Below, in pieces: positions 8,432 through 58,044 of a DNA stretch of 64,000 nt (the first letter of the stretch is position 1; each line of letters starts with the position of its first letter). The stretch comes from Myxococcota bacterium (GTDB lineage Bacteria; Myxococcota_C; UBA6777), in NCBI GenBank assembly GCA_023150835.1, contig JAKLKB010000016.1, forward strand, positions 6,003 through 70,002, written 5' to 3'. Under the pieces are notes generated by a model that saw nothing but the letters and a program-made list of their open reading frames with translations, had not been told where the DNA came from and ran no database searches. Both the position numbers and the translations under genes were made by a program.

Positions 8432-8461
8432 CGCAAACTCCCACAACAACGGCCTTCCCAA

Positions 8462-8552: not shown

Positions 8553-8601
8553 CCCCACACAGCACAAGGACTGTCCCTATGGCCTTCCCAGATCATCAAG
8601 A

Positions 8602-10770
8602 TCATCGCATCCAGATCCGACGCAACGCTCGATTCAGCCCATCCGCCACGTACAGCGAGCCTGAAAGCCACAAGATATCGGTGGGTTGATAGAATTGTGC
8701 GTCGAGTACGCCGCCATCTTTGTAACCCGGCGTCTTTCCGATCAGCGTGCTGACTTGGTTGGTGGCGGGGTCGAACTTGCGGATGCGATGGTTGTCGCGA
8801 TCTGCGATGTACAAGGATCGTCCGTCCCATGCCAGCCCCATCGGAAAGCGAAACTTTGCGGATCCTGCGGTTCCATCGGTGAGGCCGAAACCACCCGCTG
8901 CCACCGTGAACACCTTCTTTGCGTTGAGATCGATCTTGCGGATACGATGGGATAAATAATCGCTTACGTACAGGTTTCCTTGACCGTCAAGCGCAAGTCC
9001 CAAAGGATAGTGAAACTGCGCAGTGGTCAACGAGGTGCCATCGCTCGTTCCCACTTTCCCGTTGCCCGCAAACGTCGAGACCTCGCCCAACAGCGTGATC
9101 TGACGGATTCGGTTGTTCGCCATATCCGCAACATAAAACACCTTGGCATTCGCATCATAGACGATGCCTCGCGGAAAGTGGAACTGCGCTTTTTCTCTTG
9201 TTCCTTCTTTGTCCCCCAACGTCGACCCAGCAAACAAACCCACGCCCTTCGTCGGATCCACAAAGCGGATCTTGTGGTTCGAAGTATCCGAGATAAACAC
9301 AACACGATTCGGCCCTTCGGCGATTCCACAAGGATCGGAAAGCTTGGCCGTGAGCGGATTGGCGCTATTTTGGTCCCCCACCACCGATCCCGCCCACGTC
9401 CCCGAAAGATTCGGTCCCGAAACCAACAGCACCTGATCTTTGTTGCGATCCCCAACCAACAAGCCTGTATGCGAAACATACCCCAGCGCGCAAGGATAGC
9501 TAAACGGCGAAGTGACGGCGGGCGCGATCGGCCCTGCCATCGTCGTCACATACGGAGTCTTGCGACAGCCCCCACCGACACAAAGCTCTCCCGCGAGACA
9601 GGACTTTCCGCACGTTCCGCAATGACTGTTCGATTCTTTGAGATCGACGCATTCGCCTTTGCAATGTGCCAGCGCCGCGTTGGAACACACACAGGAGCCG
9701 CCCACGCAACTCGCGTTGCTCGCACAAGCATCCTCGCACTTACCGCAGTGCTTGGCGTCCGTCTTCACGTCGACACACTCTCCTTTGCACTCTTGCCGTC
9801 CACTCGCGCACGAGCACGCCCCATTTTGACAAGTCGCCCCCACCGAACAAACGCTGCCACACGCTCCACAATTCTTCGGATCGATCATCACATCCGCGCA
9901 GACGTTGGCACACGCAGTCGCTGGTTTGACACACGCAGACACACACGCACCACCTTGGCATAACGGCGCAGCATCCGCCCCACAAGACTGCCCACAGTCC
10001 CCACAATGCGAAGGATCCGTTCGGATATCGACGCAAATACCGCCACAATCTTTCTTGCTCCCCGCACATCCGCAAAATCCGTTGAGACATCCTTGATCGT
10101 TTCGACAAGCCTGACCACACTTCCCACAATGCCTCGGATCTTGCTTGGGATCCACACAAGACATCCCACAACGTATCTCCCCCGTTTTGCAAGGCGTTTG
10201 ACACAGCCCGCCCGCACAGATTTGGCCCGACAAGCACGCGGCATCGCACACTCCGCAATGTTGCGCGCTCGCTTGGATATCCACACACACACCGCCACAC
10301 AAACGCCCACCATTCGGGCAAGAACAGATCCCTCGCTGGCACACCTCAACGGCCTCACAAGCATTGTTGCACTGACCGCAATGCTTTGGGTCGGTTTGGG
10401 TATCGACGCAAGCGCCCGCGCAAAACCACTTCCCCTCCGCACAAGGATTCTCTGGCTCCGCCTCTTGGGCCTCTTGTTCGGTCAGTTCGCTTTCCACCCC
10501 AGTATCGGGTTTCTCTGGCGATTCCACTACAGCTTCTTGAGGCTCGACAGCGATCTGTTCTTCCGCACCGTAAGGCTCTGTTGTCGAAGCATCACCGCGC
10601 TTCCAAAACACACACAGCCCCTGTTCGCAATGCGCCCCAACACCGAGCTTTTCGCATTCTTTGTTTTCTTGGCAAGGCCACAAGGCGCTACCTTCGGGAA
10701 GTGTCGGAGATTGCGTACAGCCCCACCACACCACACCACAAAAAACACACCACGCAACCATTCGCCACAT
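8602..10770 (-). CDS. Lipoprotein: Stig1-like Cys modules plus NHL propeller (paralog)
   Basis: Exported 722-residue lipoprotein, paralogous to the downstream gene at 6128-8431. The signal peptide ends in lipobox VWWGC. It is followed by a Glu-rich linker, seven HCGxC modules (DPKHCGQCNNAC, DPRHCGKCGQAC and others) and an NHL propeller (VVFISDTSNHKIRF, LYVSDYLSHRIRKI, LYIADRDNHRIRKF). The ATG at 10770 follows AGGAGCG; an in-frame ATG 21 nt upstream is less likely. The 170-bp gap to the next gene contains the four direct repeats, so the pair may be separately regulated. The products probably sit on the cell surface with the propeller outermost. Confidence 0.88.
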   Translation of the reverse strand: MWRMVAWCVFCGVVWWGCTQSPTLPEGSALWPCQENKECEKLGVGAHCEQGLCVFWKRGDASTTEPYGAEEQIAVEPQEAVVESPEKPDTGVESELTEQEAQEAEPENPCAEGKWFCAGACVDTQTDPKHCGQCNNACEAVEVCQRGICSCPNGGRLCGGVCVDIQASAQHCGVCDAACLSGQICAGGLCQTPCKTGEIRCGMSCVDPKQDPRHCGKCGQACRNDQGCLNGFCGCAGSKKDCGGICVDIRTDPSHCGDCGQSCGADAAPLCQGGACVSACVKPATACANVCADVMIDPKNCGACGSVCSVGATCQNGACSCASGRQECKGECVDVKTDAKHCGKCEDACASNASCVGGSCVCSNAALAHCKGECVDLKESNSHCGTCGKSCLAGELCVGGGCRKTPYVTTMAGPIAPAVTSPFSYPCALGYVSHTGLLVGDRNKDQVLLVSGPNLSGTWAGSVVGDQNSANPLTAKLSDPCGIAEGPNRVVFISDTSNHKIRFVDPTKGVGLFAGSTLGDKEGTREKAQFHFPRGIVYDANAKVFYVADMANNRIRQITLLGEVSTFAGNGKVGTSDGTSLTTAQFHYPLGLALDGQGNLYVSDYLSHRIRKIDLNAKKVFTVAAGGFGLTDGTAGSAKFRFPMGLAWDGRSLYIADRDNHRIRKFDPATNQVSTLIGKTPGYKDGGVLDAQFYQPTDILWLSGSLYVADGLNRALRRIWMR

Positions 10771-10982
10771 CGAACGCTCCTGCTTAACCAAGCCGCCAAA
10801 TCTCGGCTCCCTCTTTTGCTCTTATGGCACAAGACGCTTCTCGCGCCAAGGCTTTGCGCCTGCCTTCGCCCAACCTCCTACGCCCCACCAAAGACCCACA
10901 GGCGCTTGCAAAAATCCCCAAGATGTGCTTTTTTCCCCTTCTTTCCTCCAACTTGACGGAGCGGACCTCGATTCTTATACGG

Positions 10983-11269: not shown

Positions 11270-11647
11270 ATGCAAGAAGCACATACCCCGTCCACCGCTT
11301 GGCACCTACTCGCCCACTCCAACGAGATCCCCGAAGGCATGTGCCTGCAAGTCGGATTGGCGGGGCGTTCCTTGCTCGTCTGTAAAGTCAACGGGCAGAT
11401 CTATTGCGTCGAAGATCGCTGCTCTCACCGCGATATCCCGCTGCATCGGGGCTGGCTCGAAGGCTATTTGTTTGCTTGCCCCCTTCATGGAGCCACCTTC
11501 GATATCCGCAATGGATCTCCTTGTCGACTCCCCGCAACGCGACCGATCGCCAGCTTCCCCATCCAAATCGACGAACAACAGCGCGTCTTTGTCGCATTGC
11601 CTGAGCCACCCACCAAACAACCCAAATCCCCCCAACCTCCGAGGTAA
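11270..11647 (+). CDS. Rieske [2Fe-2S] ferredoxin-like protein
   Basis: Small soluble electron carrier of 125 residues. The two iron-sulfur motifs are clear: CSH (after YCVEDR) and CPLH (in FACPLHGATFD), with the CxH-x16-17-CxxH spacing of dioxygenase-type Rieske ferredoxins and NirD-like proteins. No signal peptide or membrane segment, so cytoplasmic. An in-frame start exists at 11165 but lies inside interspersed repeat DNA; the ATG at 11270 gives a product of normal ferredoxin length. It is 6 bp upstream of gshB, so probably cotranscribed. The partner oxygenase or reductase is not in the window. Confidence 0.88.
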   Translation: MQEAHTPSTAWHLLAHSNEIPEGMCLQVGLAGRSLLVCKVNGQIYCVEDRCSHRDIPLHRGWLEGYLFACPLHGATFDIRNGSPCRLPATRPIASFPIQIDEQQRVFVALPEPPTKQPKSPQPPR

Positions 11648-11653
11648 CCGCGC

Positions 11654-12628
11654 ATGACAGTACAGATCGGCATCGTCATGGACCCCCTTCAAAGTATCAA
11701 AGTCGCCAAGGATACGACCTTTGCGATGATGCTCGCCGCACAAAGTCGTGGCTGGGATCTTTGGTACATGGAACAAGGCGATATCTGGGTCAAAGACGGC
11801 TCCCCCCACGCCCGTATGCGCCAAGTCCGAGTCCAAGACCATCCCCTCCATTGGTTCGATATCCTCTCCGACAAGATCGCCCCACTTCGCGATCTTGACA
11901 CGATCTTGATGCGCAAAGATCCCCCCTTTGATATGGAATACATCTACACCACGTATGCCCTCGAACGTGCCGAAACAGAGGGCGTTTTGGTCTTCAACAA
12001 ACCTCAAGCCCTCCGCGATGCCAACGAAAAATTCTATCTCTCTTGGTTTCCACAATGCGCCCCCGAAACGCTGATCACCCGCAGTTCCGCCCAGATCAAA
12101 GACTTTGTGCAACAACATTACCGCGCCGTCCTCAAGCCCCTCGATGGCATGGGCGGAGCCTCGATCTTTTCCCTCAAAGCTGATGATCCCAACCTCAACG
12201 TCTGCATCGAAACCGTCACCCGCCTCGGACGGGCTTTTGCGATGGTCCAACAATACGTCCCTGAGATCACCCTCGGCGATAAGCGACTTTTGCTGATCGA
12301 TGGAGAACCCGCCCCCTACGTCCTCGCACGAATCCCCCAAGGAACGGACTTTCGCGGCAATCTCGCAGTCGGCGGAAAAGGCGTCGCGCAGCCCACTTCC
12401 GAGCGCGACCGCTGGATCGCCCAACAAGTCGGCCCCACTCTTCGCGAAAAAGGCATGATCTTCGTTGGACTGGATATCATCGGCGATTATCTCACCGAGA
12501 TCAACGTCACCAGCCCCACAGGTATGCGCGAGATCAACAAAGCCTACGACACCGATCTCGGCGGCCAGCTCATGGACGCCATCCAACGCAAGCTCGACGC
12601 TCGCCCCCCATCGAATCTGCGCAAATAA
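11654..12628 (+). CDS. gshB: Glutathione synthetase (ATP-grasp)
   Basis: Ligates gamma-glutamylcysteine and glycine using ATP, the second step of glutathione synthesis. The 324-residue product matches the prokaryotic GshB length. Family motifs seen: MDPLQSIKVAKDTTFAMM near the N-terminus, MRKDPPFDMEYI, KPLDGMGGASIF (ATP-grasp loop), and the C-terminal TEINVTSPTGMREI. Start ATG at 11654, 6 bp after the Rieske stop. No gshA is present in the window. Downstream 12629-12837 holds only repeat DNA. Confidence 0.95.
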   Translation: MTVQIGIVMDPLQSIKVAKDTTFAMMLAAQSRGWDLWYMEQGDIWVKDGSPHARMRQVRVQDHPLHWFDILSDKIAPLRDLDTILMRKDPPFDMEYIYTTYALERAETEGVLVFNKPQALRDANEKFYLSWFPQCAPETLITRSSAQIKDFVQQHYRAVLKPLDGMGGASIFSLKADDPNLNVCIETVTRLGRAFAMVQQYVPEITLGDKRLLLIDGEPAPYVLARIPQGTDFRGNLAVGGKGVAQPTSERDRWIAQQVGPTLREKGMIFVGLDIIGDYLTEINVTSPTGMREINKAYDTDLGGQLMDAIQRKLDARPPSNLRK

Positions 12629-12639
12629 ACTTGTGTTTG

Positions 12640-12780
12640 TGGGGTTTCACCCCATAGGCGTTAGGTGAAGCCACAGATGGCCCCTCTTACGAGATCCGCA
12701 GGGCGTGTGATCGTAAAACGTAGGGGCAGCCCACTGTGGCTACCCAACCACAGGGCGTCTACAACGAATCGCACCGACCC
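12640..12780. repeat. Interspersed hairpin repeat, family A
   Basis: Contains ACGAGATCCGCAGGGCG, then GTAGGGGCAGCCCACTGTGGCTACCC and CACAGGGCGTCTACA, the same core as the copies at 16883 and 36000. It lies between convergent gshB and maf. No gene in this gap. Confidence 0.65.
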
Positions 12781-12837
12781 TTCGTGTACACATTCTCGGT
12801 GCTCGCGTCATCCACCCTCATCCGATCAAGGCGACGC

Positions 12838-16882: not shown

Positions 16883-17002
16883 AAGAAATCCGCTCGTTGC
16901 GTACCCAGAAAGCGTAGGGGCTGCCCCCGTGGCTGCCCAAGGACAGGGCGTCTACAGCGGATCGCACCTACCCTCCGATCACACGTCTCTTGGATATCGT
17001 AT
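16883..17002. repeat. Interspersed hairpin repeat, family A
   Basis: Starts GAAATCCGCTCGTTGCG and ends TTGGATATCGTAT. The core is GTAGGGGCTGCCCCCGTGGCTGCCC with CAGGGCGTCTACAGCGGATCGC. It lies exactly between two convergent genes (stops at 16878 and 17018), so it could serve as a two-way terminator. Confidence 0.7.
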
Positions 17003-35999: not shown

Positions 36000-36092
36000 A
36001 TACGATCTCCGCCTGTTTCGCACACGAAAAACGTAGAAACCCCCTGTGGCTGCCCGACCACAGGGCGTCTACAGCTTCTCTCGAATATCGTA
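36000..36092. repeat. Interspersed hairpin repeat, family A
   Basis: Starts ATACGATCTCCGCCTG and ends CTCTCGAATATCGTA; core CCCCCTGTGGCTGCCC with CAGGGCGTCTACAGC. Shortest clear copy (93 bp). Lies just upstream of the second TPR gene. Confidence 0.7.
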
Positions 36093-36123
36093 GAAGCCCC
36101 GTCCTAAAAAGAAAGAAAGCAAA

Positions 36124-41161: not shown

Positions 41162-43498
41162 ATGAAATCTGTGTGGCGGGTCTGTTGGCTGCTCTTGTGT
41201 TGGAACTTCTTGACGTGCGCCCCACCGCCACCTCCCGATCTGGATCTTTATCCCTGCGAACAAGACTCCGATTGCCAACTCCCCAACGGGCGGATACTTC
41301 AATGTTGCCAAGATCAAAGCCTTCGCCGATGTTGCGTCCCCAACCAAGACTATTGCTGTCGCTCGGATGGAAAGCCCCAGATCTGCCCGATATCTCCGCC
41401 TTATCCACCTCAAACACCTTGTCAAGACGGAAAGCTCTCTTTCGATGGCACCCGATGGAACCCTTGCCTTGGCGCTGTCTCTGAACAAAAAGAGCGCTGC
41501 AACGGCCTCGATGACGATTGCGACGGCCAGATCGACGAAGATTGGCCCCTCAAAGGCACCCGCTGTTTTGTCGGGCCTCCTCTCTCCAATTGCGAAGTCG
41601 GCGGGTCTTGGATCTGCGATCCTTCCGACCCAAACGAGCTGATCTGTTCTGCGCGGCAACCACTCACTTCTTCTGCAAGCATCGAGATCTGCGACAACAA
41701 AGACAACGATTGTGACGGAAGCGCTGAACAAAAAGCCTGCTATCCGCCTTCTTCAGGGCAATGCCCTTTCCCCGTCGACGCCAAACAAGAATGTTGCCGC
41801 TTCTTCGTTCGTAGCAGCGAGGAATGTGTGGGTTGCGTCCTTGCCCAAAACCAAACACCTTCTGATCGCTCTTCCGCTTATCTCTGTCACGGCCTTTGTC
41901 AGGCAGGCATACAACGTTGTTCCTCCGATCAAACCTTTGGCGAGTGCAACCAACCCATCCTCCCAAAGCCCGAAGAATGCGACAACAAAGACAACGACTG
42001 TGACGGCCTTGTCGACGAAGGTTGCCCATGCGATCAGATCGGCGCTTTCCGACCCTGTTATCAAGGACGCCCGGGAACCCTCGGATGGTCGGGAGATCCA
42101 CGCGATCCTCTTCGCCTTGCCTTGCTCTATACCTTTGGAACACTCGGACGTATCGGCGCAACCTGCCGATTTGGCATACAAAAGTGCATCGCAGACGCCA
42201 GCGGTCGACGCCGTTGGGATCACCAATGCGTCCAACAGATCACCAACGAAACCAAAGACTGCACCTCTCCCCAAACACCCGACAACAACTGCGATGGACA
42301 TGTGGACCCGCAAACCCCCTCTTGCCCTTGCACTGAGGGCACACAACGCCTCTGCTACACCGGCCCTATTGGAACTGAGTACAAAGGCATCTGTACAACA
42401 GGCACACAATCCTGCAAAGACGGTCGATGGACTTCTTGCGAGGGACAAAAAACCCCTTCGCTGCTTGAGATCTGCGGCAATCTCCAAGACGACAATTGCA
42501 ACGGGCTGATCGATGAGTTCTGTCCCTGCCAGCCAGAACAAACACCACTCTCTTGCTACACGGGACCCCCACAAACGCTCGACCCTTCCACCCAAAAACC
42601 GCGTGGAAACTGCAAAGCAGGGAAACAATCTTGTTTTAAAACCCCCGATGGTCGGAGTTATTGGGAAGCCAAGTGCGAAGGCCAGATCACGCCCACCCCA
42701 GAGTCTTGCAACGCCCAAGACGACGACTGCGACGGCCAAGTCGACAACATACACGTGCTCGACAACGACACCTTTCGCTCTGTACCGCTCCAACGCAGAT
42801 GCTCTTACATCGAACCCGATCCAGCCAAAAAGACCGAAGGCATCGGCCTTTGCAAAGCAGATTATCAGCAGTGCCGCGACGGCGCATGGACTCCTTGCCA
42901 AGGCGGCCAATCCCCCCGCCCCGATATCTTCGGACGCGCCTGCTCATCCGCCAGCACCAAAGAACCCGACACCAATTGCGACGGACTCAGCGAACCCTGT
43001 TGCCCGAACAATTGTAGTGCCGGAGACGAGTGTGCGCCTTGTGGCGTCTCCCGCTGCGAACGGAACTCTTGTAGCACCAAGTGCCCTGACAACTGCGCCT
43101 CCGACAACGACTGCCTCAAAACTGTTTGCGCGGACAAGATCTTTTGCATCAACAGCCGCTGCAACAGCCGACCCTACGCTTGTTCCGACACTCCTTGCTC
43201 TTCCAACAACGACTGCTACTGCCGCCCCAAATACAACCTCTGCCTCTTGGGGCGATGTGTTCACCCAGATATCTGCCCAACCACTTGCAGCCGCGACGAA
43301 GATTGCAACCAACACCCCGCCTGCCTAAGCCAACAACGCAACGAATGTGTCCAAGGTATTTGTGCCTCTCGTGAGCGTGGCTTTCCTGCTTGCCCAGCCC
43401 AATGCACCGATCACGAAGCCTGTCAAGTCCCCGCTTGTGGAGAACGCCTCGCTTGCCTCCAAGGCTCCTGCCAAAAAATCCCCCCACTCCCCCCCTAA
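41162..43498 (+). CDS. Lipoprotein with MopE-like Asp/Cys repeats
   Basis: 778-residue exported lipoprotein (lipobox FLTC, then a Pro run). It carries seven MopE-type repeats of the form CNGLDDDCDGQIDE, CDNKDNDCDGLVDE, DDNCNGLIDEFCP, which resemble calcium-binding Asp loops closed by disulfides. The C-terminal ~150 residues are small Cys knots of the type CSxDxDC (CPDNCASDNDCLKTVC, TCSRDEDCNQHPAC). The ATG at 41162 directly precedes the signal peptide; ribosome site TGGAG is rather far. Left-hand outer gene of the mirrored lipoprotein block and convergent with 43543. Likely surface-exposed, metal-dependent structure. Confidence 0.88.
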   Translation: MKSVWRVCWLLLCWNFLTCAPPPPPDLDLYPCEQDSDCQLPNGRILQCCQDQSLRRCCVPNQDYCCRSDGKPQICPISPPYPPQTPCQDGKLSFDGTRWNPCLGAVSEQKERCNGLDDDCDGQIDEDWPLKGTRCFVGPPLSNCEVGGSWICDPSDPNELICSARQPLTSSASIEICDNKDNDCDGSAEQKACYPPSSGQCPFPVDAKQECCRFFVRSSEECVGCVLAQNQTPSDRSSAYLCHGLCQAGIQRCSSDQTFGECNQPILPKPEECDNKDNDCDGLVDEGCPCDQIGAFRPCYQGRPGTLGWSGDPRDPLRLALLYTFGTLGRIGATCRFGIQKCIADASGRRRWDHQCVQQITNETKDCTSPQTPDNNCDGHVDPQTPSCPCTEGTQRLCYTGPIGTEYKGICTTGTQSCKDGRWTSCEGQKTPSLLEICGNLQDDNCNGLIDEFCPCQPEQTPLSCYTGPPQTLDPSTQKPRGNCKAGKQSCFKTPDGRSYWEAKCEGQITPTPESCNAQDDDCDGQVDNIHVLDNDTFRSVPLQRRCSYIEPDPAKKTEGIGLCKADYQQCRDGAWTPCQGGQSPRPDIFGRACSSASTKEPDTNCDGLSEPCCPNNCSAGDECAPCGVSRCERNSCSTKCPDNCASDNDCLKTVCADKIFCINSRCNSRPYACSDTPCSSNNDCYCRPKYNLCLLGRCVHPDICPTTCSRDEDCNQHPACLSQQRNECVQGICASRERGFPACPAQCTDHEACQVPACGERLACLQGSCQKIPPLPP

Positions 43499-43542
43499 GA
43501 CAACACTCGCATCTACTCACAAAAGCACGCCTTCCTGCCGAG

Positions 43543-45264
43543 CTATTCGCACTTTTTCGCGCCTGCTGCGGGATTGTACGCCTGCCCGGGTGGGCAGCGA
43601 CATGTGCTGATCTCGTCTTGCTTGTACCATGCGTACCGAAAATATTGCACTGTGTTGTCTGTAAATCGCACAAACCCCGTAAACTCGTACTCTTTGGGCC
43701 GTATATTGACTTTTTTTACATAGCACTTGCTGTTTTCGCAACGCGCACCGCTTGTCAAACAATCTTCGACTTTCGTGCAACTTGTTGCGCCACCTGTCAT
43801 AGGCTCGTAGCATTCTCCGTTTGAGCAGATCCCACCCACAACCCCCTGACTTACACAATCCGCGTGGCTCACACACAATCGCGCTTGATAGCTGCTGTTC
43901 CATGTCTGTGTGTGGGTTCGCTCCTCGTTCTTCAACAATACGCTCTGTGAGTACTTCATCCAAGAACAAGTCGTCTCGATCGGAAGATCCCGACTATACC
44001 GCCTTGCCGACAACTCATCGTAACACGAGCCTTTCAAACAGCGATCGCTCTCTTTGTCTTGACACTCCTTGTCTTGCGTACAAGCCGAACCCTCCAAATC
44101 CAACCGCTTCTCGTGGCATTTGTTGTCTTGGCACACATAGCGACAAGACGCTGGATCTTTTGCATCTTTGCAATTGCCCGTAGGATCGCAGTCTTCGTCT
44201 TTCACGCACGAGGTCTCTGCGATCAGCTTACCCGCCAACCGAAACAAGATACACCTCGCAGGTGCTTTGCCTTCTTCATGCACACGAAACGGATAATACA
44301 CGCACTCTGGCTCAAACTGGCCTCGCTGCGCCTGACAGTTCTTGTAAGCCTCCTGATTCACCGCCTTAAAGTAGCAGTATTTTTGACCGTTGACTTCCAA
44401 ACATTTTTTCGTTGCATCCGCATCATCCACCGCGATCCCTCGGCAATCGCTGTCTTGTGTGCAAGACGACGCCTGTCCCGCTCCGTCCTTGTAGCGGATC
44501 ACGCAGAACCCGCCCTCACACTTATCGCCCCCAACACCCGCACAATCCGCATCTTGACGGCACAGGATATCGTACTCACGATGTTGCTTTTTTAACGTAT
44601 CGCAGTAAGCCGCTTCGCATTCAAAATTCGCCGAACATACGACGTTTGAGAAAGTCACCAGATCAAGCTGCGTCAGCGGTGTTTTCGGCGGATAATCGTT
44701 CTTGATCACCAAACGATACCGCTTCTCAAGCTCCAACCTATCCCCCGAACCGTTCGCATCGCCACCGTGTAATTTCTTAACAAACTTTCCGTCCTGATCG
44801 AGTTCTTCGACCAAAAACTCTTTGCATGTGTTGTTTCCAACGCGAAAGATCTTCGGCGCTTTTCCTGCCCCTTGCCCACAAGTCACTTCCAAAAGCCCAC
44901 ACCCAAGGCTTTTGCTGGTGCATACACCGTTCACGATCTTTTCTGCGCTCACCACCTTAAACGTCTCGATCCCGCACTTCAGTTCGGCCTGTTCTCCATT
45001 GATCGACAACGCGCAATTGTCTCCATCTTTTCCTGTATCTCCTTTGTCGCCTTGTTTGCCGGTCTCCCCATCGATCCCATTTTTCCCGTTGGTTCCGTCC
45101 TTTCCCGGACGCAGCACATAACTCTCTTCTCCACACTTCAACGTCGCTGTACCATCTCCATTCTTTTGTAACGTGCACGTTGGGCCGCAACCTTGCACAA
45201 AGACCATCCCCCACGCGCACAACACAAGACCTGCGCACCTCAAACACCATCGCATCGACTTCAT
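43543..45264 (-). CDS. Cys-rich lipoprotein with collagen-like segment (paralog L3)
   Basis: 573 residues. Signal peptide with lipobox VQGC, then the two-Cys module CTLQKNGDGTATLKCG, a collagen-like run of G-x-y triplets (GKDGTNGKNGIDGETGKQGD and on), and a second two-Cys module (CALSINGEQAELKCG). The middle and C-terminal regions hold many CxxDxDC modules (CTQDSDCRG, CVKDEDCD, CTQDKECQD) and end with FVRFTDNTVQYFRYAWY and a CRCPPGQAY tail. ATG at 45264 with AAGGAGG. Last gene of a three-gene minus-strand operon (gaps 28 and 83 bp). Function unknown. Confidence 0.88.
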   Translation of the reverse strand: MKSMRWCLRCAGLVLCAWGMVFVQGCGPTCTLQKNGDGTATLKCGEESYVLRPGKDGTNGKNGIDGETGKQGDKGDTGKDGDNCALSINGEQAELKCGIETFKVVSAEKIVNGVCTSKSLGCGLLEVTCGQGAGKAPKIFRVGNNTCKEFLVEELDQDGKFVKKLHGGDANGSGDRLELEKRYRLVIKNDYPPKTPLTQLDLVTFSNVVCSANFECEAAYCDTLKKQHREYDILCRQDADCAGVGGDKCEGGFCVIRYKDGAGQASSCTQDSDCRGIAVDDADATKKCLEVNGQKYCYFKAVNQEAYKNCQAQRGQFEPECVYYPFRVHEEGKAPARCILFRLAGKLIAETSCVKDEDCDPTGNCKDAKDPASCRYVCQDNKCHEKRLDLEGSACTQDKECQDKESDRCLKGSCYDELSARRYSRDLPIETTCSWMKYSQSVLLKNEERTHTQTWNSSYQARLCVSHADCVSQGVVGGICSNGECYEPMTGGATSCTKVEDCLTSGARCENSKCYVKKVNIRPKEYEFTGFVRFTDNTVQYFRYAWYKQDEISTCRCPPGQAYNPAAGAKKCE

Positions 45265-45347
45265 CCGCAACCTCCTTCGATTGACCGTTTCTTCAAATAT
45301 CCCTACACACCGAAACCTACACGGATATCTCGCTGCCGCGTGTCTTC

Positions 45348-46718
45348 TCAGCGGCATTGATTATTTTCTGGATCAAACACCGTCCCTTCGGGGCAATAGC
45401 AACGTTGAATCACTTCATCCGCCGAAGCATACAGATCAAAACGAAAAAATTGTCTCGAACCATCGACGAAATCCACATACCCCGAAAGCTCATAGCGCGG
45501 ATCTGCGCCGCTTCGCTTATCGAGACTTTCCCAGATCGCACGATTGCGCTCGGGTTCGTTCGGATAAAACAGCGTTTGTGTCGTCCTCACCCAGCCGCAA
45601 AATGAATTCCCGGGAAACATCCGCTCATAAATAATTTCTGTTGAGGCTGTTTCTTTTTTGCGAAATCTTCCTGAAAAACGAAACACCACACAACGCCCTC
45701 GTGGCTGTTCTTCTCCTTTGACCAGTTCATGCCGTGGGAACGGATAAAACGCACATTCATGCTCAAATTGTGCACGCGTTAATTCGCAGTAACGGCGCTT
45801 TTCCACGCTGACCTGCCGCCGATAACACACCCCACTTGCCCGCTCGCAAAAAAATCGCTCCGCCGCTTTCCCTTCCTCCAAACAATCGCTGTCTTGACGA
45901 CACACCAAACCACCCTTCTCTCGCCGCTCATAGCACAATTTGTTGCTTTGCAAACAAATTGTCTCTTGTCCTGCACAGGGCTGTTGGGCGCACGAGATAT
46001 CGTACGTTCCTTTCTCTTCTAATTCTTGGCAATACTGCGCGTTGCATTCTTTGTCTTTGTTGCAATTCACATTCGAATAAGTCTTCAATTCGACTGGATT
46101 TGCTTCGTAGCTCGCTCCGATCTTCTGCCCGATACGCAAACGGTAATACCGCTCAAGAACAAGCTGCTCTCCGGTGCGTGTCGCTGTCCCGCTTCTCAAC
46201 ACGTTCAAGACTTTCCCATCGCTTGACGGGGTGCTGACTTCCGCTATCTCAAAAAAATGGCAGACCCCACCGCCTACCACAAAACTTTGCTCTGCTCCAT
46301 CATGCAAGCACCGCACGATCACTTGTTCGCAACCTCCCCCAAGATCCTTGCTTTCAAAACGGCACGTCTTTTCTGCTGATAACACTTCTCCGTTTAATAC
46401 GATAAAACTTTGTCTTTCTTTCTGATCAAAACCTTTGCATCGTAGCACACCTGTTCGTGGATCTTGCGCTGCTGCAGTAAACGTGCAATTCGCCGCTCCT
46501 TGCGCTCCTTGGACTCCTTGCGTTCCTTTCTCACCAACCAAACCATCCTTGCCTTCTGTGCCGTTCGCACCCGACTTCCATGTATAGTCGGTTCCCTGAC
46601 AAGTGATCTGTTCCACCCCGTCTCCTCTCTTTTCCCAACGACAAGGAGCCCCACCACAGCTTTGCAATCCGATCCAAAAAACGCCCACAACACCAAAGCT
46701 CCACCACCTGACACGCAT
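45348..46718 (-). CDS. Cys-rich lipoprotein with collagen-like segment (paralog L2)
   Basis: 456 residues. Lipobox LQSC; module CRWEKRGDGVEQITCQG; collagen-like GANGTEGKDGLVGEKGTQG run; second module CTFTAAAQDPRTGVLRCKG. A CNKDKECNAQYCQEL-type Cys region follows, then the conserved tail CELTRAQFEHECAFYPF, CVVFRFSGRF, GYVDFVDGSRQFFRFDLYA and CYCPEGTVFDPENNQC. ATG 46718 with GGGAGG; the frame is open to 46880 without a signal. Closest relative is the gene at 46747-48180. Confidence 0.88.
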   Translation of the reverse strand: MRVRWWSFGVVGVFWIGLQSCGGAPCRWEKRGDGVEQITCQGTDYTWKSGANGTEGKDGLVGEKGTQGVQGAQGAANCTFTAAAQDPRTGVLRCKGFDQKERQSFIVLNGEVLSAEKTCRFESKDLGGGCEQVIVRCLHDGAEQSFVVGGGVCHFFEIAEVSTPSSDGKVLNVLRSGTATRTGEQLVLERYYRLRIGQKIGASYEANPVELKTYSNVNCNKDKECNAQYCQELEEKGTYDISCAQQPCAGQETICLQSNKLCYERREKGGLVCRQDSDCLEEGKAAERFFCERASGVCYRRQVSVEKRRYCELTRAQFEHECAFYPFPRHELVKGEEQPRGRCVVFRFSGRFRKKETASTEIIYERMFPGNSFCGWVRTTQTLFYPNEPERNRAIWESLDKRSGADPRYELSGYVDFVDGSRQFFRFDLYASADEVIQRCYCPEGTVFDPENNQCR

Positions 46719-46746
46719 CTTTGCCTCCCGTCTCGAACCGTCTGTT

Positions 46747-48180
46747 CTATTCGCATTGCCCTGTTGTTGGATTGAATGTTTGCTTTTCAGGAGGACAAGA
46801 GCAGCTTTGCCAAAAAGCCTCTGCATTTGCATAAAATTCATGAAAAAAGTATTTTCGTGTACCATCCACAAACTCTGCAAACCCAGAGAAAAAATGCGAA
46901 GAATCGCTCCGTTCCCCCCGATCCACCGTTTCCCAGATCGATTTGTTTCGCTCAGTTTGACCGAGATAAAACAAAGTTTGGATGACTTTCACCCAATTAC
47001 ACGGCGTCCCTCCAGGAGTCGCACGCGAATAAACGACCTCGCCCCCAGAAGAAGGCACTCGCCTCAAACCGCCCGAAAACCGAAACAACAAACACTTTCC
47101 CGTACCTTCTCCTGCACGATCCTCCGCAAAAGGATAGAACACACACAAACCTTCGACCAATTGTCCGCGCGCCAAACGACAATAGTCGTATTCTTTCTGC
47201 TTGATCTTCCGCCGATAACAATCCCCACGCAGCGCATCACAGAACACACGTCCCAATGCCAGCGCCTCTTTTTCCGTTGTCTCTCCCACGCAGTCTGCAT
47301 CCGTAGTACAACCAAAACCCGTAACTTTTTCATAACAAAGACCCACTTGTTTTCCTTTTTCATCCACAAATTCTCGGCAAAAGTCTGTATTCTCACCACA
47401 GTCTGCTTGCACTGAAACCATCCGACAGCTTTGATCATAGGCTCCAATCAAGACGCGGGGAGGAGACGTAAATCGATCTCGGAAAGCCCCTTGTGTTCGC
47501 AAGACGTCACAATAGCTTGGATTACATTCGGATGCAGAATGGCAACGATAACGCGAAAAAGAGTACAGCCCGGGCGTTTGGGTGGCTTGTATATTTTTTG
47601 AGCGCAACGTGAATTGGTATCGCTCATGGATATCCAGCCCAGTTCCGGGGCGATTGGGCGCCCCGTTGCGCAAGATCTCGCCCGTTGCTTTACCGTCTTT
47701 ATCGAGCTTTTCGATCGAAAAAGTATTACAAGAATTCACACCGATTTGAAATCGACTTTGTTCGCTACCTTCACCGCAGATCACCTCAAAGGCCCCGCAG
47801 TCCGCATCCAACACCTCAAATCGACAAGCTCCTGCCGCCTGAAAGCCATCCCCGTTCAAAACAACCCACTCTTTGCTGTACTCTTTTTCTCCTGCCCCTT
47901 TGCATCGCAACATGCCTGTTCGTGGATCTGTCTGAGAGCGCAAAAACACACAGTTGGCCTCACCCGATGGCCCCGCTTCACCTTTCCCACCATGAGTTCC
48001 CTGCGCCCCGTCCGGCCCCACTTTTCCTTCCGCACCGTCTCGAACGGTGTAGCTTACCCCACCGCAGACCCACGTCACCTGACCATTTGTACTCGACCAA
48101 TTGCAGCGCTCGCCTTGGCATCCTTCAAACACCCAAAACAGCAGAAAAAAACACCACCCCAACCTCCTCCACACAACCAT
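46747..48180 (-). CDS. Cys-rich lipoprotein with collagen-like segment (paralog L1)
   Basis: 477 residues, first gene of the minus-strand trio. Lipobox FEGC; module CNWSSTNGQVTWVCGG; collagen-like GAEGKVGPDGAQGTHGGKG run; second module CVFLRSQTDPRTGMLRCKG. Then ICGEGSEQSRF, a Cys region (CRMVSVQADCGENTDFC, CTTDADC), and the family tail CRLARGQLVEGLCVFYPF, CLLFRFSGGLRR, GFAEFVDGTRKYFFHEFYA, CSCPPEKQTFNPTTGQC. ATG 48180 with GAAGGGAG seven bases upstream; a GTG three bases earlier is in frame. Divergent from the plus-strand trio across 899 bp. Confidence 0.88.
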   Translation of the reverse strand: MVVWRRLGWCFFLLFWVFEGCQGERCNWSSTNGQVTWVCGGVSYTVRDGAEGKVGPDGAQGTHGGKGEAGPSGEANCVFLRSQTDPRTGMLRCKGAGEKEYSKEWVVLNGDGFQAAGACRFEVLDADCGAFEVICGEGSEQSRFQIGVNSCNTFSIEKLDKDGKATGEILRNGAPNRPGTGLDIHERYQFTLRSKNIQATQTPGLYSFSRYRCHSASECNPSYCDVLRTQGAFRDRFTSPPRVLIGAYDQSCRMVSVQADCGENTDFCREFVDEKGKQVGLCYEKVTGFGCTTDADCVGETTEKEALALGRVFCDALRGDCYRRKIKQKEYDYCRLARGQLVEGLCVFYPFAEDRAGEGTGKCLLFRFSGGLRRVPSSGGEVVYSRATPGGTPCNWVKVIQTLFYLGQTERNKSIWETVDRGERSDSSHFFSGFAEFVDGTRKYFFHEFYANAEAFWQSCSCPPEKQTFNPTTGQCE

Positions 48181-48319
48181 CACACCGCTCCCTTCGCCTT
48201 GTGACCGCTATTTCGCGAAACTCAAACGTGCCCACCACACCTGACACAAACACGACGACGCTATTTCGGCCCTTTCCAAAAACTATGCCTATCACTATTT
48301 TCCTTATCCCAACACACAC

Positions 48320-48427
48320 CTCTTTGCAAACCCCACCAAACCATACCGCTTTTGACATTCACAGCCCTGCACAGGCGGGCGATGAGGCGTCACAACTCTT
48401 TGCAAGCCCCACCAAACCATACCGCTT
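48320..48427. repeat. Pair of 32-bp direct repeats
   Basis: CTCTTTGCAAACCCCACCAA-type sequence ending CATACCGCTT occurs at 48320-48352 and, with one difference, at 48396-48427; start-to-start distance is 76 bp. Could be operator sites or a remnant of a small duplication. Confidence 0.75.
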
Positions 48428-48645
48428 GGCCTTCGCCCTCTCTGCCGCTTGCTCCCCACAAAAGCGCTTTCTGCCTCGCGCCCACTCACCGCGAGATCAG
48501 CCCAGTACACGATCAAGCACGAAATCGTACGCGATCGTGCACTCGCCGCCCTCCCAGTCTTTTCAGCGTTGGCTCGTTAAAACCCCCCACATCCGCGACA
48601 TACCTAACGGCGCTGCCGCCTTTGGAAAACGTCTGCTCCTTTGCC

Positions 48646-48763
48646 ATAGGAGTGACGCAGTGGAAAAGGGAAAGCGTGAAGAATCAAACCATTGTAGGGG
48701 CGGTTCGCGAACCGCCCGCGCCCGAACGTTGGCCTTTTTCGTATCGAACTGCGTCAGTCCTAT
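48646..48763. mobile_element. MITE-like element, 118 bp
   Basis: Inverted ends ATAGGAGTGACGCAGTGG (48646-48663) and GAACTGCGTCAGTCCTAT (48746-48763). The interior carries a perfect 20-bp palindrome at 48698-48717 (GGGCGGTTCGCGAACCGCCC). Same length and largely same sequence as the copy at 57927-58044. No coding capacity, so any movement would depend on a transposase elsewhere. Confidence 0.85.
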
Positions 48764-49079
48764 GCCACAGAGGTTCCAACCAACTGCATCACGCCTCTTC
48801 GAGATCTCTATCAACACAACAGGCACACGCTTTGCTGAGGCCACACCCCACCCTGTTTTGGGTAAGTACCACTTGTTGCCAAAAACCCCGTGATCGCGCC
48901 ACCCCAAGCGGTGGCGCTGCTGGTTTTTTCAAAACAACGCTCGCTCAGCCAAAACAGGGCCAAGAGGTTCGGGTCCTCTCGCAGTACCCCACCCCACAAC
49001 ACAAACCAGCAGCGTCCATCTGCGCGGAAAACAAAGCGACCGCAGCCACGATGTCTTGCCGCCATCATAGGAGTTCTCG

Positions 49080-50378
49080 ATGAAAAAACTTCCTTTCCAC
49101 GTATTCTATACGGCAAGTGTTCTGAAATTTTCGTTCTTTTTTTTCGCTTTTTCTTTACTTTTTTCGTCTGTGGCTTGCTCTCCTCCGTGCACGATCACCC
49201 CACGCACTGACGGAAGCGCAGAACTTCGATGCGGCGGTCAAACCTATGATATCAAAAACGGAAAAGACGGAGCCAGCGGAAAAGACGGAGCCAGCGGAAA
49301 AGACGGAGCCAGCGGAAAAGACGGAGCCAGCGGAAAAGACGGAGCCAGTTGCTCATTCAAAAAGGAAGCGGATGGAACAGGCACCGTGACCTGCGGAAGC
49401 GAACCCCCCGTCAAAGTCGCATTGCCCGAAAATACTCTCTTGAATGGCATCCCCTACCATGTATTCCAAAACATGCAAGACGGCTTCACGGTAGTGAAAT
49501 TGACCGAAAATGGCGTATACGACGGCGTTTTAGATCCCGAGAAAGATGTCTTTGATCTCACCAAAACTTTCGTCGTGATGTTTTCGATCAAATCCACGAC
49601 CTTCCAACCACGCTACAACAGAATTCTCGAAACCCCTTCGACATTGGTCTGTTCAAGCGACACGGATTGCCCGGCTGGAGGCTCTTGTCGAATCAAGCAA
49701 GTTTGCAAAGAAGACGGAGAATGCCTGCAAAGCACCGCCAAATGCGAGATCCCTCAAGGTGAAACACAAGGGTTTTGCAGCACCAATTGTAAAAAAGACG
49801 AAGACTGCCTCGCAAAAGGAGCAACCTGTACCCAAGGAAATTGCACAAAGGCTTTCTGTACTGTATGCACCGATGACGTGGATTGCCCTGTGAATACGCG
49901 ATGTAAAAATTCTCGCTGCGAATCCTCCGAAACCGTCAACAACATCGGCATCTACAGCCTCGCGAACGCCGTTCCCTGCGAAGGAACCAGCCCAGACGCG
50001 AAGAATCTTAGTTGCACCACAAAAGGCTCCTCTTTTTGCGATCTTGAAGAGAACAAATGCGTACATTTTCGACTGGCTCGCGAACGTTTAGACGAATTTG
50101 TCGTGCAGTGGTCAATGATCCAGATCATACCACAAAGAACTGTTTTTCTTCGCCTTCTCAGCTTCTGCGATGCCTCGATCGAATTTATCTTGGGGCGAAA
50201 ACTCGATCCCGTTTTTTATCAAAAATTTATCTGGGGCAACCTCGGAACACCGGGTGTAGACAAGTTCCAATTTATCGGAACATTGAGTTTGCCGGGTTAT
50301 GGAAATAAATCACGATACACATGGCAAGCGCATTTCAAAACCGATGGATATCAAGAAAAATGCGGACTCGCTCCCTAA
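49080..50378 (+). CDS. Cys-rich lipoprotein with GKDGAS collagen-like repeat (paralog R1)
   Basis: 432 residues, first of the plus-strand trio. Signal peptide with lipobox SVAC; module CTITPRTDGSAELRCGG; five perfect GKDGAS repeats; second module CSFKKEADGTGTVTCG. Next comes a domain shared by the trio, GIPYHVFQNMQDGFTVVKL through DVFDLTKTFVVMFSIK, then Cys pairs (CSSDTDCPAGGSC, CKKDEDC, CTDDVDCP) and a C-terminal helix-beta region (RLARERLDEFVVQW). ATG at 49080 with ATAGGAG. Predicted surface or periplasmic lipoprotein; partner unknown. Confidence 0.88.
   Translation: MKKLPFHVFYTASVLKFSFFFFAFSLLFSSVACSPPCTITPRTDGSAELRCGGQTYDIKNGKDGASGKDGASGKDGASGKDGASGKDGASCSFKKEADGTGTVTCGSEPPVKVALPENTLLNGIPYHVFQNMQDGFTVVKLTENGVYDGVLDPEKDVFDLTKTFVVMFSIKSTTFQPRYNRILETPSTLVCSSDTDCPAGGSCRIKQVCKEDGECLQSTAKCEIPQGETQGFCSTNCKKDEDCLAKGATCTQGNCTKAFCTVCTDDVDCPVNTRCKNSRCESSETVNNIGIYSLANAVPCEGTSPDAKNLSCTTKGSSFCDLEENKCVHFRLARERLDEFVVQWSMIQIIPQRTVFLRLLSFCDASIEFILGRKLDPVFYQKFIWGNLGTPGVDKFQFIGTLSLPGYGNKSRYTWQAHFKTDGYQEKCGLAP
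49260..49349 (+). repeat. Five 18-nt tandem repeats encoding GKDGAS
   Basis: Five consecutive copies of GGAAAAGACGGAGCCAGC, identical except for the last base. In frame; they form the collagen-like stalk of the R1 lipoprotein. Perfect identity indicates recent expansion or active homogenisation. Confidence 0.97.
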
Positions 50379-50417
50379 TCAAAGCCACGACGCTGTAATA
50401 AATAAGGTATGCTCTCG

Positions 50418-51599
50418 ATGCAAAAAAACACACGACGCTCTATTTTTACGCCTTCTTTTTTTCTCAAGATCAGCTTTTTGCTGCTTGTTCTGGGCGGCGC
50501 ATCGTCTTGTGGTGCGCCATGCTCACTCAAAGAAAACGCCGATGGCAGCGCGTTGTTGACATGTGGCGATCAGTCCTACACCATCCGCAGCGGCAAAGAC
50601 GGCGCACAAGGCCGCTCTTGTGAAATGAAAGACAACCTTGACGGCAGCGCAACCATCGCCTGTGGAGATCAGCTTTATCTGATACGCAAAGGCCAAGACG
50701 GTCTCAACGGAAAAGACGGCCAAAGTTGCAATCTGCGCGACAACGGAAACGATAGCGTGACCATCCTGTGCGGCACGCAAGAATATACCCTACCCCGAAC
50801 GACCGATACCATCAAAGGAATCCCCTACACTGTCTTTCAACAGCTTTCGGATGGTATTACGGTGATTCGCTTAAAAAAAGACGGCAGTTTTTCACATGTC
50901 CACGATGCAGCGAAGGACGTATTGGATCTCACAGAACCGTTCGTTTTGTTGTTCTCATTAAAAGTGCCTTGGGAAACAGTCTTTTATCCCAAAGTCGAGA
51001 TCAAAGCAACCTGCACCACAAGCCAAGATTGTCTTGCTGTAGGGGCAGAGTGCCGCAATGGCCGTTGTTCATCTTGTAGTGCGAATAGCGATTGTCCAAA
51101 TGATTCTTATTGTGCAAATGCAGAGTGTCGCAGTAACTTACCAGAAAATAATCCTAATTTCTTTATCTTAAGCCACCTGTCTTGCGATGGAGCCACACAC
51201 GAAGAACGAAATGCGAATTGCAAAACCAAACAAATGGAGTTTTGCGATGAAGAAACCCGTCGTTGTGCGCATACAGATATGATGAGAAAAAGAGATGGAT
51301 TTAATCGACATCGTGTTGAACTTTTTTATACGCTACCTTATCGGCAAAATCTTTATTACGTGCAAGACTCCTGTAACTTTAGCAAGTTGTTGGCCGAGCG
51401 CAACATCGCTCAACCCATTATCGCCTCTTACTGGACTAATTTTGGAGACAAGGCGGGAAATGTGGAGATCGTCGCTCAATTTGGCAAAATCGAAAAAATG
51501 GAGAAAGAGGGCCGCCCCTATGGCGCACAGATCCGCTATGTTTGGAAAAGTAAATTCAGCATCGCCAACTACGCTCAGAAATGCCTGACGTTGCCCTAA
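50418..51599 (+). CDS. Cys-rich lipoprotein with three two-Cys modules (paralog R2)
   Basis: 393 residues from ATG 50418 (an ATG nine bases upstream is also possible; the TAAGG ribosome site fits 50418 better). Lipobox ASSC. Three two-Cys modules: CSLKENADGSALLTCGDQSY, CEMKDNLDGSATIACGDQLY and CNLRDNGNDSVTILCG, separated by short GKDG linkers. Then the trio domain GIPYTVFQQLSDGITVIRL and DVLDLTEPFVLLFSLKV, Cys pairs (CTTSQDCLAVGAEC, CSANSDCPNDSYC) and a C-terminal region like R1. Spacing to R1 is 39 bp, so cotranscribed. More A/T-rich than its neighbours toward the 3' end. Confidence 0.88.
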   Translation: MQKNTRRSIFTPSFFLKISFLLLVLGGASSCGAPCSLKENADGSALLTCGDQSYTIRSGKDGAQGRSCEMKDNLDGSATIACGDQLYLIRKGQDGLNGKDGQSCNLRDNGNDSVTILCGTQEYTLPRTTDTIKGIPYTVFQQLSDGITVIRLKKDGSFSHVHDAAKDVLDLTEPFVLLFSLKVPWETVFYPKVEIKATCTTSQDCLAVGAECRNGRCSSCSANSDCPNDSYCANAECRSNLPENNPNFFILSHLSCDGATHEERNANCKTKQMEFCDEETRRCAHTDMMRKRDGFNRHRVELFYTLPYRQNLYYVQDSCNFSKLLAERNIAQPIIASYWTNFGDKAGNVEIVAQFGKIEKMEKEGRPYGAQIRYVWKSKFSIANYAQKCLTLP

Positions 51600-51698
51600 A
51601 TGGGCCTACGGGCCTACGCATCTTCTAGCGACTGGATTGGCCCACTCCACGGACACAAACACACGCAACACCTCTCCCAAATGGCAAGGAGTCTTTCC

Positions 51699-53009
51699 AT
51701 GTCGTGTAAAGAAAAAACCTTTTTAGTACGGTACTTACGAGCATTTTTTTTGACTTTCGCACTCGCTCTCTTGTTCGGAGCTCCCGCATGTTCGCCACCT
51801 TGTACGCTGACGCCAAACGGCGACAAAACAACAACGCTTCGCTGCGGTGATCAAACCCACACCATCGCAAACGGAAAAGATGGAACGAACGGCCAAAACG
51901 GTCAAAGCTGTGCGCTGAGCAACAACCCAGACGGAACCGCAACTCTGCGGTGTGACGACGGGAAAGAATACAAGATCAGCAGCGGAAAAGACGGAACAGA
52001 CGGCAAAAGCTGCTCCTTAAAAGATCAACCCGACGGAACCGCACTGCTCACCTGCGGCACAGAATCTTTCACAGTACATCGCGGACAAGAAAAAGATCTT
52101 TTTGGCGTACCACAAAAGATCTTCGAGTCTTTGCCCGAAGGACTCCATCTTTTCTTGTTTAAAGAGGATGGTAGCTTTCAAAAAGTCTTTGACAAAAGCA
52201 AAGACACGCTCGATCTTTCAAAGCCGCACCTTGTTGTCGTTATCCTAGAAAAATCATGGAATCCATACTATACGCTACCCAAAGCAAGCTCGACTCGGAC
52301 TTGTATCCAAGATACTGAATGTCCTGCATCAGGAGTATGCCGTATCAAAAAGATTTGTAAATCAGATAACGATTGCCAACTATTTCGTAGCTTATGCAAG
52401 ATCAATCCCGGTGAGCAAGAAGGCTTTTGCGAAAAAAATTGCCTATTCAACGAAGATTGCGAAGCCAACGGTGCCGTTTGTAGCACAGGTGTTTGCGACA
52501 AAGGTGTCTGCTCAAGCTGTGCAAACAACAATGACTGCCCAACAGGTACATCGTGCCGAAACTCGATCTGCGAAGGCGAGATCAACACCAACCTCATCGC
52601 CTACAATACGAGCAACGTAGCGTGCGCAGGAACCACAGAAAAAGCCAAAAACGAATTTTGTAAAAACAACAGCCTTGAATTATGTGACACAACCTTGAAC
52701 CGTTGCGCCCACACGCGGTTGGCCCGCATTGAACTCGCAGAATTTTCCCACCAATGGGCGTCTTTCTTGGTGCTCCCCCATCGTCGCGTGCTTTGGAGGG
52801 TCTATGACGCATGTGTTCTTTCTCGGTACTTCTACTCACGAAAAGTTCCGAGGGATACCCTTGAACGCCTTTTTTGGAGAGCTTTCGGGGACAACCAAGG
52901 AAACGTCGAGTATGTCGTGAGGATCCCTGTGCTGGAAACGCAAACCAACGTGCGCTACGAACTCAAAGCGAAGATGACGCTCGGAGACTACTCGCAACGG
53001 TGTTTTTGA
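51699..53009 (+). CDS. Cys-rich lipoprotein with three two-Cys modules (paralog R3)
   Basis: 436 residues. ATG 51699 follows AAGGAG at good spacing; the frame is open from 51600, directly after the R2 stop, but that segment lacks a signal. Lipobox APAC. Three modules: CTLTPNGDKTTTLRCGDQTH, CALSNNPDGTATLRCDDGKE, CSLKDQPDGTALLTCG, with GKDGTNGQNG linkers. Trio domain GVPQKIFESLPEGLHLFLF, DTLDLSKPHLVVVILEK; Cys pairs (CIQDTECPASGVC, CANNNDCPTGTSC) and the RLARIELAEFSHQW tail. Ends 13 bp from the convergent MopE-like gene. Confidence 0.88.
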   Translation: MSCKEKTFLVRYLRAFFLTFALALLFGAPACSPPCTLTPNGDKTTTLRCGDQTHTIANGKDGTNGQNGQSCALSNNPDGTATLRCDDGKEYKISSGKDGTDGKSCSLKDQPDGTALLTCGTESFTVHRGQEKDLFGVPQKIFESLPEGLHLFLFKEDGSFQKVFDKSKDTLDLSKPHLVVVILEKSWNPYYTLPKASSTRTCIQDTECPASGVCRIKKICKSDNDCQLFRSLCKINPGEQEGFCEKNCLFNEDCEANGAVCSTGVCDKGVCSSCANNNDCPTGTSCRNSICEGEINTNLIAYNTSNVACAGTTEKAKNEFCKNNSLELCDTTLNRCAHTRLARIELAEFSHQWASFLVLPHRRVLWRVYDACVLSRYFYSRKVPRDTLERLFWRAFGDNQGNVEYVVRIPVLETQTNVRYELKAKMTLGDYSQRCF

Positions 53010-53022
53010 GAGCGTGCAAACG

Positions 53023-54456
53023 CTAAGGCGCGGTCGAGCAGCGCGAGCGTACGCACGTGGTCAATCCTTTGGAATAACAGTCATTTCTTTTGCACTCGGT
53101 ATCGCTGAAACAAGAGGAAGGACAAAGACAAGTATCGTCAGGGATCCCGTCGCAATCTTCGTCGACGCCGTTTCCAGTCTGCCCAGCCCCGCATTGTTCG
53201 GGCTTTGGCGTAATCTCGCCTAAACAATTGCTCCATTTTCCATCGATACACTCGCGATATCCAGAAGAACAAGGCGGATTTTTCGGATGAACGGAAGAGC
53301 ACTCTACCCGAAGGACGCCTCCTGATGGCCGATTGTCCACTCTTCCATCGCAGTCGTCATCGAACCCGTTGCACTCTTCTTCTTTTGGCTTATCGAACTC
53401 GCATACGACCCGACCATCGATACATTTGGGGACTCCTGTCGCGCAAGCACCGAGCTTTTGCGTATCCTTGCAGACTCCCGTTGGATATTCAGGAAAATAC
53501 CACGGAGGCTCGTCGGTTTGACCGTCGTCGTTGTTGTCTTTGCCATCGCACAACTCCAGGCGACAAAAAGCCCCGTTATCGATTTTCCCGTCGCAGTCAT
53601 CATCGATCTTGTTTCCGCAGATCTCTTCTTTCGGAGTGATCGCTCCACGACACGGCTCCCATCGACCATTTTCGCAGTATTGCCCACCCACAGCACAAGG
53701 CCCCTTGCATTCGTAATCTGCGCCGCCTCGCAGCACGCATCCTGCGGTGTCTGCGGGGTAGCAAGGGCGGAACAGCAGACTTAGATACTCTTTCCCATAC
53801 GGATCTTTTTTCTTGACTCGGTCGATCAATCCGTCACAATCGTCGTCTTCGTTGTTGCACTCTTCGGGCTTTGGAAGGATCTGCTCACGGCAGGCCGTCC
53901 ACTTTCCATCCTGACAGTTGCGGATGCCGCCTTTGCATCGCGCCCCGTCACGCAGCGTTCCTTCGGGTCCGTCGTAGCAACTTTGCGGCGTATCGGGGTC
54001 GAGTCCTTCGTCGATCTGGCCGTCGCAATTGTCGTCGTGACCGTTGCAATCTTCCTCCACAGCTTTGCAGACATATCTCCCGCCTTCGCAACGTTGAACA
54101 CCACAGGACTTGTCGTACTTAGGCGTGGAAGAGCAAAGGATCTCGCCTTCTTTTTTTTGGGGGATCAGCCCTTCATCGATCTGGCCGTTGCAGTTGTTGT
54201 CCAGACCGTCGCAGATCTCCTCACCGATCGGTACTTTTGTAGACTGGCAGATCCCAAGCGTGCTTGGATCGCTGTCGCGCTTACAGCAAAACAAGCCAGA
54301 GCCAAAAGCCCCCAAACACTCTTCGCTGTGTTGGCACTTTCGCCCTTGCAAGCGCAACTCCTCCACCGCTGGGGATATCGTGCAACTCCACAGCAAAAAA
54401 ACAAACCAGCCACAAGCCATCTTGAAGTACAGGCTGCGTCGCCTCTTTGCTTTCAC
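53023..54456 (-). CDS. Lipoprotein with MopE-like Asp/Cys repeats (right-hand copy)
   Basis: 477 residues from GTG 54456, which gives a proper lipoprotein signal (KAKRRRSLYFKMACGWFVF, lipobox LLWSC) and has GAAGGA ten bases upstream; ATG 54420 and 54510 are alternatives. Seven repeats such as CDGLDNNCNGQIDEGL, CNGHDDNCDGQIDEGLD, CGNKIDDDCDGKIDNG, CNGFDDDCDGRVDN form the body. It ends in the small knot CLCPSSCFSDTECKRNDC. Same architecture as 41162-43498, on the opposite strand at the other edge of the mirrored block. Probable metal-binding surface protein. Confidence 0.87.
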   Translation of the reverse strand: MKAKRRRSLYFKMACGWFVFLLWSCTISPAVEELRLQGRKCQHSEECLGAFGSGLFCCKRDSDPSTLGICQSTKVPIGEEICDGLDNNCNGQIDEGLIPQKKEGEILCSSTPKYDKSCGVQRCEGGRYVCKAVEEDCNGHDDNCDGQIDEGLDPDTPQSCYDGPEGTLRDGARCKGGIRNCQDGKWTACREQILPKPEECNNEDDDCDGLIDRVKKKDPYGKEYLSLLFRPCYPADTAGCVLRGGADYECKGPCAVGGQYCENGRWEPCRGAITPKEEICGNKIDDDCDGKIDNGAFCRLELCDGKDNNDDGQTDEPPWYFPEYPTGVCKDTQKLGACATGVPKCIDGRVVCEFDKPKEEECNGFDDDCDGRVDNRPSGGVLRVECSSVHPKNPPCSSGYRECIDGKWSNCLGEITPKPEQCGAGQTGNGVDEDCDGIPDDTCLCPSSCFSDTECKRNDCYSKGLTTCVRSRCSTAP

Positions 54457-57926: not shown

Positions 57927-58044
57927 ATAGGACTTACGCAGTTGAAAAGGGAAACCCTGAGATATCAGAACGTTGTAGGGGCGATTCGCGAACCGCCCAC
58001 GCCCGAACATGGGCCTTTTTCGTATCGAACTGCGTAAGTCCTAT
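57927..58044. mobile_element. MITE-like element, 118 bp, with 4-bp target duplication
   Basis: Inverted ends ATAGGACTTACGCAGTTG (57927-57944) and GAACTGCGTAAGTCCTAT (58027-58044). CTTG flanks it on both sides (57923-57926 and 58045-58048), consistent with a transposition target duplication. Interior GTAGGGGCGATTCGCGAACCGCCC matches the copy at 48646-48763. Confidence 0.88.

Follow-up and report, generated by a model that had tools for sequence, protein, structure and literature searches.

The eight-gene block described here lies in a window of 64,000 nucleotides (that is, the whole stretch of DNA that was analysed), which is part of contig C136 in the draft genome G000 (7.56 Mb, 93% complete). 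Two flanking genes that carry the motif of family PF11617 (MopE-motif genes) enclose two divergent trios of inner lipoprotein genes, and the trios are separated by an intergenic centre:

41162..43498, + strand: MopE-left, MopE-motif Cys-rich lipoprotein of 778 aa; PF11617 58.3 bits (cut-off 27); lipobox FLTC; 92 cysteines besides the lipidated one
43543..45264, − strand: L1, inner lipoprotein of 573 aa; two-Cys module, 10 Gly-X-Y triplets and eight CxxxDC-type repeats
45348..46718, − strand: L2, inner lipoprotein of 456 aa; 9 Gly-X-Y triplets
46747..48180, − strand: L3, inner lipoprotein of 477 aa, sister of L2; 9 Gly-X-Y triplets
48184..49079, no strand: intergenic centre between the divergent arrays, without genes of either family
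48646..48763, + strand: MITE-like repeat of 118 bp within the centre; terminal inverted repeats of about 17 bp
49080..50378, + strand: R1, inner lipoprotein of 432 aa; 10 Gly-X-Y triplets
50418..51599, + strand: R2, inner lipoprotein of 393 aa; three two-Cys modules; linkers of at most 4 triplets
51600..53009, + strand: R3, inner lipoprotein of 469 aa as listed (the start may be further in, near 51681); three two-Cys modules
53023..54456, − strand: MopE-right, MopE-motif Cys-rich lipoprotein of 465 aa (ATG at 54420) or 477 aa (GTG at 54456); PF11617 68.3 bits (cut-off 27); lipobox LWSC; 48 cysteines besides the lipidated one

For all eight genes, the original prediction is borne out in order, strand and approximate position. 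It also holds for the 899-bp centre (896–899 bp separate L3 from R1, varying with the L3 start that is chosen) and for the convergence of both outer genes with the inner trios, across gaps of 44 bp (left) and 13 bp (right). Within each trio, spacing is operon-like. R1, R2, R3 and MopE-right are intact long frames and are on that ground taken to be real genes, with the full-length homology of R1–R3 to one another as further reason for these three. MopE-left, L1 and L2 are shown to be real genes by purifying selection relative to a congener, G001 (MAG 'Myxococcota bacterium isolate KLAP109', 86% complete): dN/dS is 0.26, 0.08 and 0.125, respectively, internal stops are absent and every cysteine is kept (93 in MopE-left, 45 in L1 and 27 in L2). 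In G001, MopE-left, L1, L2 and the end of L3 follow one another in the same order, the syntenic stretch being 90–94% identical in DNA, and conservation of the C-terminal end of L3 extends to the point inside this gene at which the contig stops. The right half (R1–R3 and MopE-right) was not found in G001, although with 86% completeness and a contig broken at this place, absence is not implied. A neighbourhood conserved in relatives, which the original prediction had asked for, therefore exists for the left part in the congener, whereas the full arrangement is known from one genome only.

The six inner genes had been proposed to share a lipobox and a two-Cys module; both are present in 6/6 and the genes are homologous, forming a single family of lipoproteins that are probably surface-exposed and disulfide-rich. 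Each product runs from the lipobox through the two-Cys module and a Gly-X-Y linker to a common middle region and then to CxxxDC-type repeats. The module spans about 31 residues (C-x12-13-C, then usually G and an aromatic residue) and occurs in one to three copies per protein; matches to its profile are confined to this lipoprotein family. The collagen-like linker, also claimed for all six, is clear in L1, L2, L3 and R1 (9–10 triplets) but hardly so in R2 and R3, in which short Gly-X-Y stretches (longest run, 4) separate the three modules in place of one 9–10-triplet linker. Besides the lipidated cysteine, all eight block proteins and two paralogs from outside the block have an even number of cysteines, a parity expected for ten proteins about once in 1,000 under a coin-flip model, although relatives do not count as independent trials; such even counts suggest full pairing into disulfides in an exported ectodomain. 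AlphaFold models were weak (mean pLDDT of 60 and 43) and Foldseek returned no fold match to them at E below 0.001. The C-terminal regions of L and R are alike in predicted helix and strand order, but their profile comparison is non-significant and we do not claim homology for them.

The symmetry of the block holds by gene type and strand, but not by sequence. Within the trios, BLAST alignments run over the full length (R1–R3, E = 1e-90; L2–L3, E = 6e-84), whereas between the trios similarity is restricted to the N-terminal half or less (best E = 4e-17). Inverted duplication, the origin that had been suggested for the layout, predicts the pairs L3–R1, L2–R2, L1–R3 and MopE-left/MopE-right. In the tree, however, no mirror pair of L and R genes appears: R1–R3 form a single clade (support 100/100), L2 and L3 are sisters (100/99) and L1 falls on the side of the C75 and C47 paralogs, which are located elsewhere in the genomes of the genus. 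DNA self-comparison found no long inverted repeat joining the two halves, and the longer inverted matches between them (43–60 nt) lie inside the repeated MopE motif. Judged by these alignments and the tree, the mirror is not an inverted duplication, and the two trios expanded separately. The block was to be regarded as a chance assembly if left and right paralogs were no closer to each other than to unrelated proteins; as the L profile (paralogs included) aligns with the R profile at 99.3% probability over 170 columns, it is not dismissed on that count.

The centre is the probable site of both promoters of the divergent arrays. No sigma-70-like site was scored in it, and the lineage may use other promoters; no Rfam families were found within 36–64 kb. 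The 118-bp element in the centre is a MITE-like insertion, of which G000 contains at least 40 copies (the second one in the window at 57927–58044) and G001 dozens, with terminal inverted repeats of the form ATAGGA(G/C)T(T/G)ACGCAGTT (about 17 bp) and 3- or 4-bp direct repeats flanking the majority of 34 inspected copies. Another dispersed repeat (CCCCTGTGGCTGCCCGACCACAGGGCG...) occurs at 12731–12791, 16924–16984 and 36041–36101, and in L037 near 11590–11710. Given that G001 has a copy between MopE-left and L1 that is missing in G000 and lacks the copy at 36041, this repeat looks mobile. Elsewhere in the window (6128–10791, − strand), two adjoining lipoprotein-like paralogs consist of CVDxQTDPKHCGxCG repeat arrays followed by beta-propeller (NHL-like) repeats.

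Among the genomes covered, the inner family appears confined to one genus. Genes of the L type number three in the block, one on contig C75 of G000 (with its G001 orthologue on C64) and one on contig C47 of G001, and R-type genes occur in the block only. The phylum was covered by five genomes, of which the three besides G000 and G001 yielded no member of the family. A pattern scan with the L family over genomes of 84,980 species matched KLAP109 alone, at a limited sensitivity with which distant relatives elsewhere remain compatible; a contig scan of genomes with R3 and a plasmid search gave no match. The 31-residue module and the lipoprotein family that contains it are named by no library used and have been seen in one genus only. 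The C75 protein has 100% identity to its G001 orthologue over 486 aa. At the DNA level, the G000 C75 and G001 C64 loci (L034 and L039) share 99.3% identity over 9.8 kb, compared with 90–94% for the window region; recent exchange, strong constraint or assembly mixing may each account for this.

On inspection and by pattern, a lipobox cysteine follows a signal peptide in 8/8 block proteins. Retention in the inner membrane is signalled by Asp at position +2 in E. coli and by Lys at +2 in M. xanthus, and Ala at +7 of the mature protein is typical of M. xanthus matrix lipoproteins such as FibA (PMC3222651). The eight proteins have G, G, Q, S, G, S, A and T at +2 (that is, neither Asp nor Lys), so that sorting to the outer membrane is plausible by both the E. 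coli and the M. xanthus rules; at +7 they have L, R, N, I, L, L, P and V, and the matrix-type Ala is absent. Assuming such sorting, each inner protein would be tethered through its lipidated cysteine, probably on the outward side of the outer membrane. The two-Cys module and a short stalk (Gly-X-Y or modular) would act as a spacer between the membrane and an ectodomain rich in disulfides, in which all remaining cysteines are probably paired. The anchor, composition and copy number point to paralogs that may be specialised within a structural, adhesive or ligand-binding layer as the most likely role. The best reading of the block, to which we assign a probability of roughly 0.6, is one of genus-restricted exported lipoproteins encoded in two separately arisen divergent tandem arrays, with stalked disulfide-rich ectodomains contributing to such a layer.

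Both outer genes pass the PF11617 cut-off. In G001, several other MopE-motif ORFs give MopE-right far higher scores than the orthologue of MopE-left does, and the DNA of MopE-left is matched equally well or better by other contigs of G000 than by MopE-right; as far as sequence goes, the outer genes are no special relatives of each other. A search of PDB sequences with phmmer gave no match to solved MopE structures, and only a short motif is held in common, so the 'MopE-like' of the original prediction is best taken to mean that the MopE motif is present. MopE of Methylococcus capsulatus itself binds copper through two His residues and kynurenine (PMC3423442). ORFs with the PF11617 motif number at least approximately 69 in G000 (a lower bound from a hand tally, with 150 of 456 candidates scored), in open frames of up to about 3,100 aa and in several cases clustered, on C70, C79, C167, C201 and C37; none was present in 14 control genomes.

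It is conceivable that all eight genes make up one functional system in which MopE-motif and inner lipoproteins build a single metal-dependent surface structure. MopE-left, L1, L2 and the end of L3 do keep their order in the congener, and MopE-motif genes on both flanks would arise by chance at a given place with a probability of only about 1e-4. With so many motif ORFs, however, approximately 0.8 six-gene spans flanked in this way are expected genome-wide (assuming independence), so that the outer pair is no strong evidence of a system; in addition, no MopE-motif gene adjoins the off-block paralogs in the inspected stretches of C75 and C47, and the right half was not recovered from G001. We therefore consider a single system of this kind unlikely. 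The MopE-motif lipoproteins on the two flanks are probably surface proteins in their own right and adjoin the arrays by happenstance, and cooperation between them and the inner lipoproteins is possible. The related proposal of one dedicated surface layer or appendage, made up of six paralogous stalked lipoproteins and two motif-repeat lipoproteins with a genus-unique disulfide module, we hold to be quite unlikely.

The inner genes could instead encode variable recognition proteins with fast-diversifying paralogs, such as receptors for kin, prey or phage, as might be expected of multi-copy, exported, Cys-rich and lineage-specific proteins whose paralogs have diverged deeply. The strong constraint seen between species speaks against rapid variation: L1 and L2 have dN/dS values of 0.08 and 0.125, no hypervariable block is present and the C75 product does not differ from its G001 orthologue. 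This makes a recognition role very doubtful. The origin of the mirror in an inverted duplication of a four-gene unit (MopE and three lipoproteins) is the least credible alternative, the symmetrical layout by gene type and strand and the homology of the inner genes across the centre being outweighed by the single R clade, the grouping of L1 with paralogs elsewhere, outer genes with equal or better matches among other MopE-motif genes and the absence of a long inverted repeat, even if very strong gene conversion within the trios could in principle mask an old event.

Returning to two separately expanded arrays of exported lipoproteins, the block offers a clear case of a mirror-like gene layout without an inverted-duplication origin. 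Apart from the genus-limited family, it is ordinary paralog clustering and not a new kind of system. If the proteins do form a surface layer, they would offer a way to approach the cell envelope of this uncultured lineage, for whose envelope biology the block is of moderate interest.

Several known systems resemble parts of the block. The outer genes (and only these) share with MopE of Methylococcus capsulatus a repeated CNGxDDDCDG-type motif above the Pfam cut-off, but MopE is freely secreted, whereas the outer genes would encode lipoproteins linked to it by the PF11617 motif alone. The myxococcal Cys-rich repeat proteins of TIGR04201 likewise have short Cys repeats and give one weak match, to R1 (15.4 bits, under the cut-off of 25), with the rest of the protein unmatched. 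A relation to SinM was rejected (a single weak match of 13.7 bits against a cut-off of 250, and no paper found), as was a phage tail fibre, since the PHROGs matches fall on the Gly-X-Y segment and its borders. Outer-membrane and matrix lipoproteins of M. xanthus (PMC3222651) are similar in being exported, in belonging to a related phylum and in lacking the inner-membrane-type Lys at +2; the block proteins differ from the FibA type in having no Ala at +7, and no common sequence family was found. With respect to collagen, all block scores for the Pfam family (PF01391) are under the cut-off (best, 23.8 against 27.2). Linkers of 4–10 triplets speak against long collagen fibres; those of R2 and R3 (maximum of 4 triplets) are too short, and a trimeric triple helix in these two proteins is unlikely at that length. 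The streptococcal Scl1 and Scl2 and the Legionella Lcl proteins are also exported and place a Gly-X-Y stretch between the anchor or head and the remainder of the protein; the likeness is limited to that stretch (approximately 12–20 bits against cut-offs of 325–500), and the inner proteins are set apart by their 4–16 triplets only, their lipid anchor and an unrelated Cys-rich ectodomain.
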